Shown here: positions 29,671-33,970 of the stretch, piece by piece
Layout: every line of letters begins with the position of its first letter
Numbering within the stretch: the first letter of the stretch is position 1
NCBI RefSeq assembly: GCF_900184265.1
Contig: NZ_FXXA01000002.1
Location: 1,572,918 to 1,636,917, forward strand
Source of the DNA: Eggerthella timonensis
GTDB taxonomy: Bacteria; Actinomycetota; Coriobacteriia; Coriobacteriales; Eggerthellaceae
Reading direction: 5' to 3'
Length of the DNA stretch: 64,000 nucleotides
Program-made: the position numbers and the translations under genes
Notes under the pieces: model-generated
What the model saw: only the letters and a program-made list of their open reading frames with translations
Database searches by the model: none
What the model was told of the DNA's origin: nothing

Positions 29671-29709
29671 AAAACCGCCGCAAGCCTCCTGCTTGCGGCG
29701 GTTTTTCGC
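29671..29709 (+). terminator. Rho-independent terminator after yebC
   Basis: 14-bp perfect arms (AAAACCGCCGCAAG 29671-29684, complement 29692-29705) and a run of five T residues. Confidence 0.85.
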
Positions 29710-29910: not shown

Positions 29911-31902
29911 ATGCTGGAAGCGCTCGCGCGTCTTTTCTCGTACATCGTGCAGCCGTGCTACGACCTGACGGGAAACTGGTGGATGGCTATTTTGCTGTTC
30001 ACCGTCATCATCAAGATCGTTCTGATGCCGCTGTCGCTGTGGTGCCAGTGGAACAGCATCGTCATGGTCGAGGTCATGCCTGAGCTCAACCGCATCAAGG
30101 TGAAGTACTTCGGCGACGCTGAGGCTATCGGCGAGAAGCAGACCGAGCTGAACAAAAAGCATCATTACCATCCGCTTCTCTCGCTCATCCCGCTTGCGGC
30201 GCAGATCCTCGTCCTGTTCGGGTTGGTGGAGGTGATCCACGGCATCACCGACCACGGCGCTCCGGGAACCGAGTTCTTGGGCATGGTGCCCATCGAAGAC
30301 GGAGGGCTTTCGTGGATCATGCCGCTGTTGGCGGGTCTGTCGGCCGTGGCGATGGGCTTCGCGCAGAACCGCATCAACCCCTTGCAGCGCGAGCAGTCCA
30401 AGATGGAGAAGAACACCACCAACGGCCTTTCCATCGTCTTGTCCCTCGTCCTGGGCGTGTACGTGGCCGCCGGCATGGCTTTCTACTGGATATGCTCGAA
30501 TCTGATGGCCATCGTCGTGCAGGCGCTGTGCAACCTGATCATCCGACCTGAGAAGTATATCGACTATGCCGAACTCGCTGCAAGTCGTGTGGAGCTGGAC
30601 GAACTCAACGCTTTCACGGCGCGCAAAATGCCTTGGTACAAGCGCGATCCGTTGGCGAAGCGCGAGAAGGAGGACTACAGGCGCTTCGTGAGCGTGGTCG
30701 GCAAGCATATCGTTTTCTATTCTGAGCGTAGCGGCTTCTACAAGTACTTCCAAGGCGCTATCGAATGGTTGTTGGCCAACTCCGACGTGAGCATCCATTA
30801 CGTTACCAGCGATCCCAACGATCAGGTGTTCGGGTTGCATGAGGCTAACCCCCGCATCGTACCGTACTATATCGGCGACAAACGCCTGATCACGCTCATG
30901 ATGAAGCTCGATTGCGACGTGGCCGTGATGACATTGGACGATCTGGAGAACTTCTACATCAAGCGCTCGTACATTCGCAAGGACATTGAGTACGTATACG
31001 CGTTCCATCATATGACGTCCACGCATCTGGTGTGCACGAAGGAGGCCTTCGACCATTACGATACTGTTCTGTGCGTCGGCCCACATCAGAAGGCGGAGCT
31101 TGAACGGGTTGAGGAGATGCGGGGGCTTCCCAAGCGCAACCTCGTAGAATGCGGCTATGATCTGCTTGATCGACAGATCGAGGCCTACGAGTCGCGCAAG
31201 GCTGAGAAAGCCGGCGACCCTGCAAGGTCGAAGCGCCCCGCCGTCCTCATCGCTCCCTCGTGGCAGGAGGACTGTCTGCTCGATCTGTGTGCCGACGAAG
31301 TCATCGAGCCTTTGCTGGGACGTGGATACAGCGTGATCGTGCGCCCGCACCCCGAGTACACCAAGCGTTACCGCGCGCGGTGGGAGTCGCTGCAGCAACG
31401 CTATGCCTCGTGGTCGCGCGACGACCTTTACTTCGAACAGGATTTCAGTACGTCCGATTCCATCTACGATGCCGACGTGCTGGTCACCGACTGGTCTTCG
31501 ATCGCGTGCGAATATTCGTTCACCACCATGAAGCCGTGCGTGTTTGTGGACACTCCCATGAAGACGACCAACTCTGATTGGCAGGAGCTGGGGATCGAGC
31601 CCACCGATATAGCCATTCGCAACCAGATCGGCGCGTCGTTAGCCGTGGAGGAGCTGTCTCGATTGGGCGATGTCGTGGAGGATATGATCTCTCGTCCCGA
31701 AACGTGGCGAAACCGCATCGAGGAGGTGCGCTCACGCATGATCTACCACAGTGGTCACGGTGCAGAGGCTGCCGGAGCGTATCTGCTCGATCGCATGTTG
31801 GCAAAGCAGGGTGGTAGGGCTGACGAGGCCGGCATCGACTTCCAGACAGACCGGGTTGGCGAAGCTGATTGGGTCTTCGAGGAGGTGTGTCATGGTGAAT
31901 AG
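29911..31902 (+). CDS. YidC/Oxa1-like membrane domain fused to CDP-glycerol glycerophosphotransferase-like domain
   Basis: 663-residue fusion. Residues 1 to about 215 resemble the YidC/Oxa1 insertase core: MLEALARLFSYIVQPCYDLTGNWWMAILLFTVIIKIVLMPLS is an actinobacterial YidC-type start, followed by a cytoplasmic hairpin and further membrane segments (to about 210). Residues from about 265 to 640 are a soluble domain of the TagB/TagF type, which adds glycerol phosphate units to teichoic-acid-like polymers: APSWQEDCLLDL, RPHPEYTKRY and ADVLVTDWSSIACEYSF are its marks. ATG 29911 follows GGAAGAACGAAC. The stop overlaps the start of the next gene, a membrane sulfatase, so they act together, probably in making an anionic glycopolymer. 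Confidence 0.85.
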   Translation: MLEALARLFSYIVQPCYDLTGNWWMAILLFTVIIKIVLMPLSLWCQWNSIVMVEVMPELNRIKVKYFGDAEAIGEKQTELNKKHHYHPLLSLIPLAAQILVLFGLVEVIHGITDHGAPGTEFLGMVPIEDGGLSWIMPLLAGLSAVAMGFAQNRINPLQREQSKMEKNTTNGLSIVLSLVLGVYVAAGMAFYWICSNLMAIVVQALCNLIIRPEKYIDYAELAASRVELDELNAFTARKMPWYKRDPLAKREKEDYRRFVSVVGKHIVFYSERSGFYKYFQGAIEWLLANSDVSIHYVTSDPNDQVFGLHEANPRIVPYYIGDKRLITLMMKLDCDVAVMTLDDLENFYIKRSYIRKDIEYVYAFHHMTSTHLVCTKEAFDHYDTVLCVGPHQKAELERVEEMRGLPKRNLVECGYDLLDRQIEAYESRKAEKAGDPARSKRPAVLIAPSWQEDCLLDLCADEVIEPLLGRGYSVIVRPHPEYTKRYRARWESLQQRYASWSRDDLYFEQDFSTSDSIYDADVLVTDWSSIACEYSFTTMKPCVFVDTPMKTTNSDWQELGIEPTDIAIRNQIGASLAVEELSRLGDVVEDMISRPETWRNRIEEVRSRMIYHSGHGAEAAGAYLLDRMLAKQGGRADEAGIDFQTDRVGEADWVFEEVCHGE

Positions 31903-33970
31903 CAGTCTGCCGCGCTTTACCGCGCGTGTCGGTCTTGCGGCGTCCGACATTGCGTTCCCTCTAATGATTGCCGGTGCTTTGACGCTCGGTTTCGCCCCGC
32001 CGGCCTATGCCTACGTCGATCCTTCCGTCATGACCTACACCATTCAGGCTCTTGCGGGCGTCGCGGTGGCGCTTTCGGCTGTACTCGGTGTCGTTTGGCG
32101 CCGGGTGCGCAAGCACTTGCTGCGGATCCTGCGCATCGACGAGAACGAGGGAAAACAGGTTGAAAGCGCGGTGCACGCGCTCGATCCTCTTGCGTTCGAT
32201 TACCGAGACCGCCTCGATAGGGCGGAATCGGAAGCGCGCAGGATGAAGGCCAAGCAAGCGTCGAACAAGCCTGAGACGCTGTGCTGGCGTGCGCGCTTCC
32301 TGTTCTCGCTGGTGGCTTCGCTGATGCTGGTCTACACTTTCGCGGTGGTGGCTCCGCTGGAAATCGTCGCCAGCAGCGTTAACAGCCTGCTTTTCACGGT
32401 GACGGACGTCTGGGTTCCCTTCGCCGTCGTCGGGCTCGCGGGCACTGTCGTGCTAGCCTTAGCGTTGTCGCTGTTGCGGGGAAGGGCGTTCAACGTGTGC
32501 TTCGCGGTTGTGGCGGCCGTGGGCGTGGCCGGCTTTGTGCAGGCCCTGTTCCTGAACGGATCGCTTCCCGCAGCCGACGGCACGCAGGTGGTTTGGGACG
32601 ACTACACCACGGCCACCGTGGTGAGCGCCGTCGTGTGGATCGTCCTCATCGGGTCGGCGGTGTTCCTGTCGCTGAGGAAGTCGCTGGCGTTCAAGGGCAC
32701 GGCCGCCGCGCTGTGCCTGGTGGGCGTCGTCGCGCAATCGGTGAGCCTGGGAGTCCTGCTCACCGCGCCGGCGCCCGACGGCCTACCCCCTGTCGCGGCG
32801 AGGCACTCCGTCACCACCGACGGCGTCTCGGAGGTTTCGTCGAACGGCAACATAATCATGTTCGTACTGGATACGTACGACACGCTGTTTTTGGAGGAGG
32901 GCCTGGAGGAAGAGCCCGGCTGCCTCGACGAGTTCACCGGGTTCACCTGGTTCGACAACTCCACAGGCTCGATGATCCCCACGCGCTACGCCATGGCCTC
33001 GATTCTGACGGGGCGCGCTCTCGACGAGGACGACAAGGGCTTCTCCACGTCGTTGATCATCGACTGGTACGAGCAGCATGGCCTGATCGACGACATCAAC
33101 GCGCAGGGATACGAGACGTGCTTGTATGCCACCGACATCAACGATGCCATCGGCTCCCTGTCCGATCGGGTGGAGAACATCAAGCTTCGCGAGAACCGGC
33201 TGGACTATCCGTCGGCGGTTGCGATGCTGGTGAAGTGTTCGCTGTACCGCGATCTGCCTTGGGCGCTGAAGCCGCCGTTCTGGTTCTACACCGACGAGGT
33301 GAACAGCGCCGCGCTGGGAAGCGGTGCCGAGAGCGCCGTGAACGCGCTGTGGACCATGGACGACGCGCGCTACTACGCTACTCTCAAAGAGCAGGGACTG
33401 AGCGCCGCCGACCTCGATGGGAAGGGGAGCTTCCGCGTCATACACCTGGCAGGTCCCCATCCGCCGTACACGTTGAACCGCAATGCCGAGACGGTGGAGG
33501 GCGGAACCGGCGCCATCGAGCAAGGGCTCGGCTCCCTCCATATCGTGAGCGAGTACCTTGAGGAGCTTAAGCGGCTGGGCTTGTACGACGAAGCCACCAT
33601 CGTGGTGACCGCTGACCATGGCGAGTGGTACATCGCTGAAGACATAGTGCGTCCGACAAGCCCCATCATGCTGGTGAAGCCTTCGACGCAGCCGTACGGC
33701 TCGGACGAGCCCGTGAAGCGCTCTTCGGTGCCTACGGGGCACGTCGATCTCGCGGCTACGCTGCTCGAAGCCGCCGGGGGCGATGCCTCCGCATACGGCG
33801 GGATGAGCGTGTTTGACGTGCCCGACGCTCCGCGCATCCGCTACTACAACGCCTCGTCGGTGGTGGGTCCCGAGCACGTGTACACGTCCATCATTCAGTG
33901 GGAGATCGAGGGCGATGCGATGAACTGGGACGATTGGCGCGAAACCGGTGTGAAATGGCCCATCGGCTGA
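31892..33970 (+). CDS. Membrane sulfatase / LTA-synthase-like phosphotransferase
   Basis: 692-residue membrane protein of the alkaline phosphatase superfamily. N-terminal segments include a YVDPS motif (41-45) like the YIDPG motif of small membrane proteins near polymer genes, then helices to about 290. The extracytoplasmic catalytic domain begins near 320: IIMFVLDTYD (D327 as metal ligand), a Ser/Thr-rich nucleophile region STGSMIPTRYAMASILTGR, and the C-terminal metal pair in TADHGEW. ATG 31892 overlaps the fusion gene by 11 bases with GGAGGT before it. Likely transfers or removes phosphoglycerol/phosphoethanolamine groups on the polymer; exact reaction unknown. Confidence 0.85.
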   Translation: MVNSSLPRFTARVGLAASDIAFPLMIAGALTLGFAPPAYAYVDPSVMTYTIQALAGVAVALSAVLGVVWRRVRKHLLRILRIDENEGKQVESAVHALDPLAFDYRDRLDRAESEARRMKAKQASNKPETLCWRARFLFSLVASLMLVYTFAVVAPLEIVASSVNSLLFTVTDVWVPFAVVGLAGTVVLALALSLLRGRAFNVCFAVVAAVGVAGFVQALFLNGSLPAADGTQVVWDDYTTATVVSAVVWIVLIGSAVFLSLRKSLAFKGTAAALCLVGVVAQSVSLGVLLTAPAPDGLPPVAARHSVTTDGVSEVSSNGNIIMFVLDTYDTLFLEEGLEEEPGCLDEFTGFTWFDNSTGSMIPTRYAMASILTGRALDEDDKGFSTSLIIDWYEQHGLIDDINAQGYETCLYATDINDAIGSLSDRVENIKLRENRLDYPSAVAMLVKCSLYRDLPWALKPPFWFYTDEVNSAALGSGAESAVNALWTMDDARYYATLKEQGLSAADLDGKGSFRVIHLAGPHPPYTLNRNAETVEGGTGAIEQGLGSLHIVSEYLEELKRLGLYDEATIVVTADHGEWYIAEDIVRPTSPIMLVKPSTQPYGSDEPVKRSSVPTGHVDLAATLLEAAGGDASAYGGMSVFDVPDAPRIRYYNASSVVGPEHVYTSIIQWEIEGDAMNWDDWRETGVKWPIG

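Follow-up and report, generated by a model that had tools for sequence, protein, structure and literature searches.

A YidC-TagF fusion protein and its alkaline-phosphatase-superfamily partner in Eggerthella timonensis and other Coriobacteriia

Introduction

Proteins of the Oxa1 superfamily are known chiefly for protein insertion, and the discovery of such a domain joined to a transferase of envelope polymer type raises the question of what it does there. In a stretch of 64,000 nucleotides of Eggerthella timonensis (contig NZ_FXXA01000002.1, positions 1,572,918 to 1,636,917; the whole stretch is referred to below as the window) open reading frame (ORF) 1 encodes a YidC/Oxa1-type membrane domain fused to a TagF/TarL-type transferase domain. 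ORF2, which overlaps ORF1, encodes a membrane protein of the alkaline phosphatase (AP) superfamily. That the two genes form a unit with an envelope setting is well supported, whereas its substrate and passage across the membrane are what we infer. We tentatively propose, at somewhat less than an even chance, that the two genes specify a single membrane-spanning apparatus for a surface polymer containing phosphodiesters, acting as a relay of loading inside, passage through the membrane and transfer outside.

Results

Organization of the gene pair

The features of the two genes are as follows (positions in the window, strand, description and basis).

29911-31902, +, ORF1, from ATG at 29911 to TAG ending at 31902; 663 amino acids (aa)
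29911-30555, +, ORF1 N-terminal YidC/Oxa1-type five-helix membrane domain, residues 1-215 (Pfam, NCBIfam, PDB profile, Foldseek, hydropathy)
30013-30015, +, Lys35 of ORF1, groove position (alignment)
30556-30696, +, ORF1 helical linker, residues 216-262 (modelled as helices by AlphaFold)
30697-31815, +, ORF1 TagF/TarL-type domain of GT-B fold, residues 263-635, predicted cytosolic (Pfam, Foldseek, VIA, alignments)
31816-31902, +, ORF1 C-terminal tail and stop, mostly of low confidence (predicted local distance difference test, pLDDT, <50 at residues 641-663)
31880-31887, +, AGGAGGTG, Shine-Dalgarno-like, for ORF2, within ORF1 (read off the sequence)
31892-31902, +, 11-base overlap of ORF1 and ORF2 (from the sequence)
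31892-33970, +, ORF2, ATG start at 31892; 692 aa
31892-32791, +, ORF2 membrane part, residues 1-300, with an AYVDPSVMTYT module and a basic cytosolic loop containing 15 Lys/Arg (hydropathy, model helices, alignment)
32804-33967, +, ORF2 AP-superfamily catalytic domain, residues 305-692, predicted extracellular (Pfam, profile, Foldseek, alignment)
32981-32983, +, Thr364 of ORF2, nucleophile position (alignment of 14 partners)

A preliminary description of this DNA had claimed the 11-base overlap, which the sequence confirmed, and had assigned the three domains to a YidC/Oxa1-type, a TagB/TagF-type and an AP-superfamily family. All three assignments were upheld by the searches described below, with Pfam, profile and fold searches used instead of HHpred for the first of them.

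The YidC/Oxa1-type domain

The Pfam family 60KD_IMP matched ORF1 residues 23-208 (E 1.4e-27, 97.1 bits versus a cut-off of 35) and the NCBIfam model yidC_oxa1_cterm scored 88.6 (cut-off 84.3). A profile made from ORF1 reached YidC in PDB with an E-value of 2.8e-18. The AlphaFold model of ORF1, built on a 14-sequence alignment, had a mean pLDDT of 82.2 and a predicted template modelling score of 0.62. Foldseek comparison of this model with PDB returned the YidC proteins of E. coli and B. halodurans below the TagF matches (6al2, 1.1e-6; 3wo7, 2.6e-6, TMt 0.69). With its core over the cut-off and a basic residue in the groove, this part of ORF1 belongs to the YidC/Oxa1 family. Hydropathy and Lys/Arg counts predicted five transmembrane (TM) helices with the N-terminus outside and the C-terminus inside, the inside loops being a C1-type loop with six Lys/Arg and a later one with four. 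This topology would place the TagF domain in the cytosol, on the side where cytidine diphosphate (CDP) donors are found.

Lys35 aligns with the Arg that lies in the hydrophilic groove of the E. coli protein. This position is Lys in 36/36 fused domains and Arg in 19/19 housekeeping YidCs from the same order. In a tree of these sequences, the fused set including three contigs from human faeces, all 36 fused domains formed one clade apart from the housekeeping proteins; the split had support of 1.0 (0.954 after rerooting) and a branch of 1.59 substitutions per site. Polar residues of the membrane domain were strictly kept: K35, S144, N153, S178 and N197 in 36/36 fused sequences and N48 in 35/36, while S144, N153, S178 and N197 are mostly replaced by other residues in the housekeeping set. 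The genome of the window has a separate housekeeping YidC (E 8.9e-49), and the fusion as the sole insertase of the cell was rejected for this reason. Together, the deep separate clade, the conserved polar residues and the presence of a housekeeping YidC indicate that the fused domain has not decayed and is not the only insertase. The strict conservation of these distinct polar residues also disfavours the suggestion of the preliminary description that the YidC part merely positions a polymer synthase. Identity to the window protein was higher in the YidC part than in the TagF part in 10 of 13 alignment rows (median 0.71 versus 0.58); the three most distant rows, loci L046-L048, reverse this order (0.31-0.36 versus 0.42-0.43). 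Here and below, G and L numbers are our handles for genomes and loci.

The transferase domain

Pfam Glyphos_transf matched ORF1 residues 378-545 (E 1.6e-9, 37.7 bits versus a cut-off of 22.1), and the best PDB match of the model by Foldseek was TagF (3l7j, E 3.1e-10). VIA gave a Z-score of 21.5 for TagF (320 residues, root-mean-square deviation 4.9), 21.2 for TarL and 20.8 for a GT-B epimerase. Neither the ORF1 sequence nor its profile found a TagF chain in PDB by sequence search, so the link to TagF rests on Pfam, on the fold and on a bridge through a paralogue. The bridge is a TarL-like protein encoded elsewhere in the genome of the window. Its IKHHP motif aligns with VRPHP of ORF1, which contains H480 (hhalign 96.1%), and the HP histidine of this paralogue aligns in turn with the residue changed in TagF structure 3l7m.

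The conserved motifs of the transferase domain are His366, His480 within VRPHP, and TDWS; K35, H366, H480, D527, W528 and S529 were invariant in 14/14 fusions. For H366 the presumed correspondence to His444 of TagF or His300 of TarL is one of motif position. The reference catalytic histidines of TagF, His444 and His548, were taken from PDB titles, and His300 is that of TarL. No match to PF04991 (LicD) was found in the fusion by the Pfam scan.

The partner protein

ORF2 was assigned to Sulfatase PF00884 over the cut-off (residues 354-629, E 2.2e-8) and its profile matched S. aureus LtaS (E 1.1e-10); NCBIfam gave no match up to E 1. With the AlphaFold model (pLDDT 81.5), the top Foldseek match was PbgA/YejM, followed by members of the superfamily including sulfatases, MCR-1 and LtaS. 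D327, D330, T364, D575 and H576 were invariant in 14/14 aligned partners. By analogy with the family, T364 would be the nucleophile and D327, D575 and H576 would be metal ligands.

In formylglycine sulfatases a Cys or Ser within C/S-x-P-x-R is converted to formylglycine, whereas LtaS, EptA and MCR-1 are phosphotransferases of the Thr type. The Thr at the nucleophile position therefore makes the partner resemble LtaS, EptA and MCR-1 and not sulfatases. The label 'sulfatase' of the preliminary description proved wrong as chemistry: a true sulfatase was rejected by Thr in place of Cys/Ser in 14/14 partners, 'Sulfatase' being merely the name of the Pfam superfamily. ORF2 is thus, as judged from its sequence, a candidate LtaS/EptA-like phosphotransferase. 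Hydropathy and model helices gave about seven TM segments, and Lys/Arg counts predicted the AP domain to be outside. LtaS has a membrane part of five TM segments followed by the enzymatic domain; with about seven segments and no NCBIfam match, ORF2 does not qualify as LtaS in the strict sense.

Separately, a gene of about 100 aa resembling the AYVDP module of ORF2 was found standing alone beside the fusion at L103:3225-3533 and L102:6894-7190. L102 also has, upstream, an AP-like gene without a Pfam match.

Distribution and co-occurrence

Among 41 genomes around that of the window, a full-length fusion of at least 59% identity was present in nine, the window's included, with two copies in G003; diverged fusions were found in G014 and G037. 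For the class as a whole we used 197 genomes, an even draw from a larger group; the searches for the partner and for the LicCA, LicD and phosphoenolpyruvate (PEP) mutase proteins discussed below used the same kind of draw. The fusion profile was found in 26 of the 197 and the partner profile in exactly the same 26, with neither in the other 171 at the thresholds used. If genomes were independent, which they are not, identical sets would arise by chance with a probability of about 1e-32. A chance fusion or misassembly was rejected because the full-length fusion is present in 26/197 genomes. Presence varies within five genera (g1, g34, g41, g43 and g55), where both genes are gained or lost together.

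The partner lies directly beside the fusion in 31 of 32 class loci, that of the window included. These are the loci with enough flank, duplicates counted once; L047, L052 and L053, which end at or inside the fusion, were excluded. The sole exception, G157, keeps the partner about 570 kb from the fusion. Conservation of the pair as a unit, which the preliminary description had put forward for checking, was found in four of the order's families (f1, f4, f5 and f9). Pairwise distances of fusion and partner correlate (r 0.91, 13 pairs, 0/20,000 permutations). In G116 the partner is divergent, both matched pieces lying within one open frame of 723 aa. Extra partner copies were seen in G208 (two) and in G005 (one on either side of the fusion). 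In G184 (L096:1735-8170) one fusion gene is followed by three AP-superfamily partners in tandem, an arrangement that suggests several acceptors or head-groups for one fusion.

A single open frame spans the YidC-TagF and AP matches at L080, L081 and L082 (G183, G076 and G205; 1357, 1377 and 1391 aa), and the open frame in G087 has the same length as that in G076. Pfam, run on L080 and L081, gave the three domains in order. In these two 60KD_IMP was well over its cut-off, Sulfatase was over it in L081 (25.4 versus 25) and under it in L080 (22.5), and Glyphos_transf was just under its cut-off of 22.1 in both (22.0 and 21.0). These single-chain forms, together with the overlapping genes, argue for physical coupling.

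Outside the class sample, three contigs from human faeces (L101-L103; MT838376, MT836777 and MT836947) carry fusions 40-42% identical to that of the window, with a GC content of 38-45%. They were deposited as 'Bacteriophage sp.', yet carry bacterial-type envelope genes (the YidC-TagF fusion and, in L103, phosphonate biosynthesis), and are possibly bacterial contigs mislabelled as phage. A scan of viral_contigs (query A1) found no relative. Among plasmids 11 records matched, all in the YidC part only and none covering 80% of the query.

Lic-type and other envelope genes

The preliminary description had placed the unit in the making of an envelope polymer. This setting was borne out in many relatives, where lic-type genes, LicD and glycosyltransferases lie nearby. 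At L045 Pfam identified, beside the unit, LicCA (here a choline-kinase/nucleotidyltransferase fusion), an EamA permease of LicB type, LicD and a GT4 glycosyltransferase. LicCA was likewise found near the unit in L043, L085 and L086, and LicD in L040. A tblastn search detected LicCA or LicD within the stretch in 11 of the 32 loci, with two more weak matches and none in 19. Its queries came from L040, L041, L043, L045, L085 and L086, the hits in these loci being so by construction; Pfam independently supports the lic proteins of all of them except L041, whose LicD was named by resemblance only. At the genome level LicCA (E up to 1e-60) was present in 24/26 fusion genomes versus 28/171 others, and LicD in 24/26 versus 43/171. 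LicD, the transferase that was searched for, had no match in G011 or G163, both of which carry LicCA near the unit; this makes the fusion a candidate user of that CDP-linked compound.

The LicCA proteins at L085:12564-15140 and L043:88-2550 consist of two nucleotidyltransferase domains and a choline-kinase-like domain, that of L085 having a winged helix-turn-helix as well.

The genome of the window has a lic locus with an amidase containing choline-binding repeats, and its LicD is a separate gene. The 1018-aa amidase/glucosaminidase (L135:9973-13029, at about 3.008-3.011 Mb of G000:C2) adjoins the LicCA gene and, from its sequence, would imply a choline-type cell-wall ligand in this Eggerthella. 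Another locus of the same genome, about 1.4 Mb from the unit, contains D-ribitol-5-phosphate cytidylyltransferase (over the cut-off), the TarL-like protein mentioned above, an ATP-binding cassette (ABC) exporter, an LCP protein and a WecA-like protein. The later members were named by best match and, apart from the LCP domain, were under equivalog cut-offs. No ABC exporter lies beside the unit in the window, the exporter being with the TarL-like genes. With both this cytidylyltransferase and lic-type CDP genes in the genome, glycerol phosphate is one candidate among several for the substrate of the fusion.

Standalone relatives and phosphonate genes

In another actinobacterial class the TagF part occurs alone in 4 of 198 genomes (G383, G611, G614 and G671; E up to 1e-30), with an internal stop in G671. 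The relative in G383 follows genes for PEP mutase, a phosphonopyruvate decarboxylase-like thiamine pyrophosphate (TPP) enzyme and an iron-dependent alcohol dehydrogenase (Fe-ADH), and precedes a PF00884 gene; the best NCBIfam match of the Fe-ADH is a phosphonate-locus alcohol dehydrogenase, under the cut-off. A LicC-like nucleotidyltransferase gene is directly upstream of the relative in G614 (L124), a weaker nucleotidyltransferase match is near that of G611, and an Fe-ADH match is near that of G671. In L103 the fusion itself is followed by 2-aminoethylphosphonate (AEP) aminotransferase (over the equivalog cut-off), CTP_transf-PEP mutase and a TPP-enzyme decarboxylase. Such neighbours indicate that relatives of the TagF domain accompany cytidylyl-activated small phospho- or phosphono-headgroups as well as polyol phosphates.

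At L104:5523-12044, likewise in another actinobacterial class, an apparent operon joins genes for CTP_transf-PEP mutase, a TPP-enzyme decarboxylase, Fe-ADH, a standalone TagF-like protein and a PF00884 protein; from its gene content it could specify a hydroxyethylphosphonate-type surface polymer.

Full-length PEP mutase was found in 7/197 class genomes, only three of them with the fusion, and the phosphonate pathway as a general partner was rejected on these numbers. The phosphonate link is rare in Coriobacteriia, and no full-length PEP mutase was found in the genome of the window.

Flanks of the pair

In the window the pair is flanked by yebC and ruvC. One further feature was noted here.

29689-29701, +, terminator-like hairpin 3' of yebC (promoter/terminator scan)

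This hairpin would give the ORF1-ORF2 pair its own transcription unit; it is at chance level (four terminator-like sites versus 3.3 expected), and the scan for promoters and terminators found nothing above chance. yebC is beside the pair only in loci of the genus Eggerthella (G000, G002 and the first copy of G003), other genera having other neighbours. No ruvC match was found in 18 kb around the first fusion copy of G003. In G001, a congener without the unit, yebC and ruvC (95% DNA identity) are separated by 5.9 kb of unrelated sequence. That interval (L134:1332-7148) encodes a flavoprotein and an amidohydrolase (Pfam) and, judged by eye, a membrane protein with a LuxR-type end. The yebC-ruvC interval is a variable gene place. 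A functional tie to yebC or ruvC was rejected, since neighbours differ between genera and G001 carries an unrelated stretch.

Discussion

A transferase inside, an insertase-type domain in the membrane and a Thr-type phosphotransferase outside are fitted best by the relay proposed above. The TagF/TarL-like domain in the cytosol would, judging from its fold and conserved residues, move a phospho-alcohol from a CDP-activated donor to a lipid-linked acceptor, the candidate donors being CDP-ribitol, CDP-glycerol and a lic-type CDP-choline-like or phosphonate head-group. The fused YidC-like domain, a grooved-insertase fold placed between both enzymes, may then let the polar head or the growing chain cross the membrane in a scramblase-like manner. 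Finally, the extracellular Thr-type AP domain would take the phospho-group from the lipid intermediate and pass it to the outer polymer. The computed support comprises the domain identities, the predicted topology, co-occurrence, the three-domain fusion, specialization of the YidC clade and the envelope-polymer neighbourhoods. The more far-reaching idea, that an Oxa1-superfamily domain once used for protein insertion now serves in a make-flip-transfer machine, carrying a phosphodiester polymer or a lipid-linked phospho-headgroup across the membrane from a CDP-dependent transferase in the cytosol to a phosphotransferase outside, is rather unlikely. We know of no bacterial cargo for lipid scrambling by insertases. 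In one study, E. coli YidC scrambles lipids in vitro and lipid scrambling is reported for all seven insertases assayed (PMC10491306).

Several observations weigh against the relay. An activity common to seven assayed insertases points to nothing specific to the fused domain, and the near tie of TagF with GT-B epimerases in VIA means that the fold alone is not specific. Standalone relatives indicate that the YidC domain is not essential to the chemistry of the TagF domain, and in L103 the partner is reduced, within the stretch of sequence available, to the membrane module of about 100 aa. Lic-type genes are not beside the unit in the window nor in 19-21 of the 32 loci, the enrichments of LicCA and LicD are confounded by ancestry, both being common in the order, and few fusion genomes have a full-length PEP mutase. 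Given the existing locus with a TarL-like transferase, ABC exporter and LCP protein, there is no obvious need for another route of export.

The last point bears on the main rival explanation, which is close to that of the preliminary description. Here the YidC-like domain merely holds the transferase at the membrane beside its lipid-linked acceptor, a flippase or ABC exporter performs the export, and decoration by the AP protein, as an independent phosphotransferase, comes later. TagF enzymes are peripheral membrane proteins, which counts for such an anchor; the genome of the window has an ABC exporter with LCP locus, and L086 and L040 have, by eye, a polysaccharide-flippase-like gene near the unit. 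What an anchor needs is, however, exceeded by the fusion-specific conservation of polar residues in the membrane domain, and the higher identity of the YidC part in most rows speaks the same way, with the reversal in L046-L048 to be set beside it. We consider this explanation rather unlikely. If the YidC-like domain were instead a dedicated insertase for the coupled ORF2 or for envelope proteins, with TagF joined for coordination, the retained insertase fold and C1-type cytosolic loop would be accounted for, and the overlapping gene order would favour co-translational contact. This makes less sense where all three domains are one polypeptide or, as in G157, where the partner gene is remote, and a housekeeping YidC is available in the genome of the window; we regard it as improbable.

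Two further alternatives concern the product. The TagF-like domain could be a substitute for LicD that adds single groups of phosphocholine, phosphoethanolamine or phosphonate type to a polymer already made, and not a polymerase. The loci of G011 and G163, with LicCA and no LicD match, agree with this, as do the LicC-like gene directly upstream in L124 and the PEP mutase, decarboxylase, and Fe-ADH or AEP aminotransferase genes beside TagF relatives in L104 and L103. It is opposed by the LicD present in nearly all fusion genomes and by G122 and G128, which have the fusion and no LicCA match at E 1e-60, and we give it a small chance. That the fusion adds a phospho-headgroup to membrane or secreted proteins during their insertion, the AP protein editing or extending it outside, has in its favour only that an insertase fold and a phosphotransferase are physically joined. 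The informative neighbourhoods consist of glycopolymer genes and the unit showed no link to a protein target, so that we consider this very improbable.

Each of the domain families is already known; the arrangement would be categorically new if groove-mediated passage were shown. With TagF and TarL (PF04464; PDB 3l7i-3l7m, 8va1) the fusion shares the GT-B fold, the Pfam family, HP and TDWS-type motifs and the best PDB fold. It differs in being an integral membrane protein by virtue of its YidC domain, in being accompanied by an AP-superfamily protein throughout the 26 fusion genomes of the class sample, and in that no tag/tar genes were seen beside it. The five-helix core, basic groove residue and C1-type cytosolic loop are those of the YidC/Oxa1/SpoIIIJ insertases, from which the fused domain is set apart by the attached transferase, the change of the groove Arg to Lys in all fused sequences and its separate clade; it is not the housekeeping copy. 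ORF2 resembles LtaS, EptA, MCR-1 and PbgA/YejM in its membrane-anchored outer AP domain, Thr at the nucleophile position and Asp-His metal site, and differs in its approximately seven TM helices, its AYVDP module and its genetic or covalent tie to a transferase of CDP-dependent type.

Likeness to Lic1/LicD decoration lies in the LicCA, LicB-type permease and LicD genes that roughly one locus in three has close to the unit and in the choline-binding-repeat amidase in the genome of the window. LicD is a transferase family unrelated to that of the fusion, and no lic pathway with a YidC domain is known to us. The TagGH system for ABC-exported wall teichoic acid differs in that no exporter genes adjoin the unit in the window. 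Phosphonate (Pnt) surface tailoring includes O. uli and A. rimae (PMC6697681). TagF relatives in the PEP mutase clusters of L103 and L104 resemble such tailoring; the scarcity of full-length PEP mutase in fusion genomes, that of the window among those lacking it, does not. We know of no other case in which an Oxa1-superfamily domain is linked covalently to enzymes of envelope-polymer chemistry on the two faces of the membrane. No description of a YidC-TagF fusion was found in searches of open-access papers, among which most subscription journals are missing, and domain-architecture tables may well list the fusion; PMC6381275, in the part available, mentions YidC and tagF only apart. Nothing on teichoic acids of Coriobacteriia turned up among the open-access papers listed.

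The fusion, with its constant outer-face phosphotransferase, makes it possible to test directly whether lipid-linked glycopolymer intermediates can be moved by an insertase fold. If the make-flip-transfer machine is real, it would represent an envelope polymer synthase-exporter of a new class, made in some species as a single polypeptide of about 1,370 residues. Little is known of the surface chemistry of Coriobacteriia from the gut and mouth, part of which the unit could account for; their decorations of choline or phosphonate type may matter for recognition by the host. Overall, the data suggest a previously unrecognized way to build or decorate the bacterial surface in the relatives of Eggerthella.

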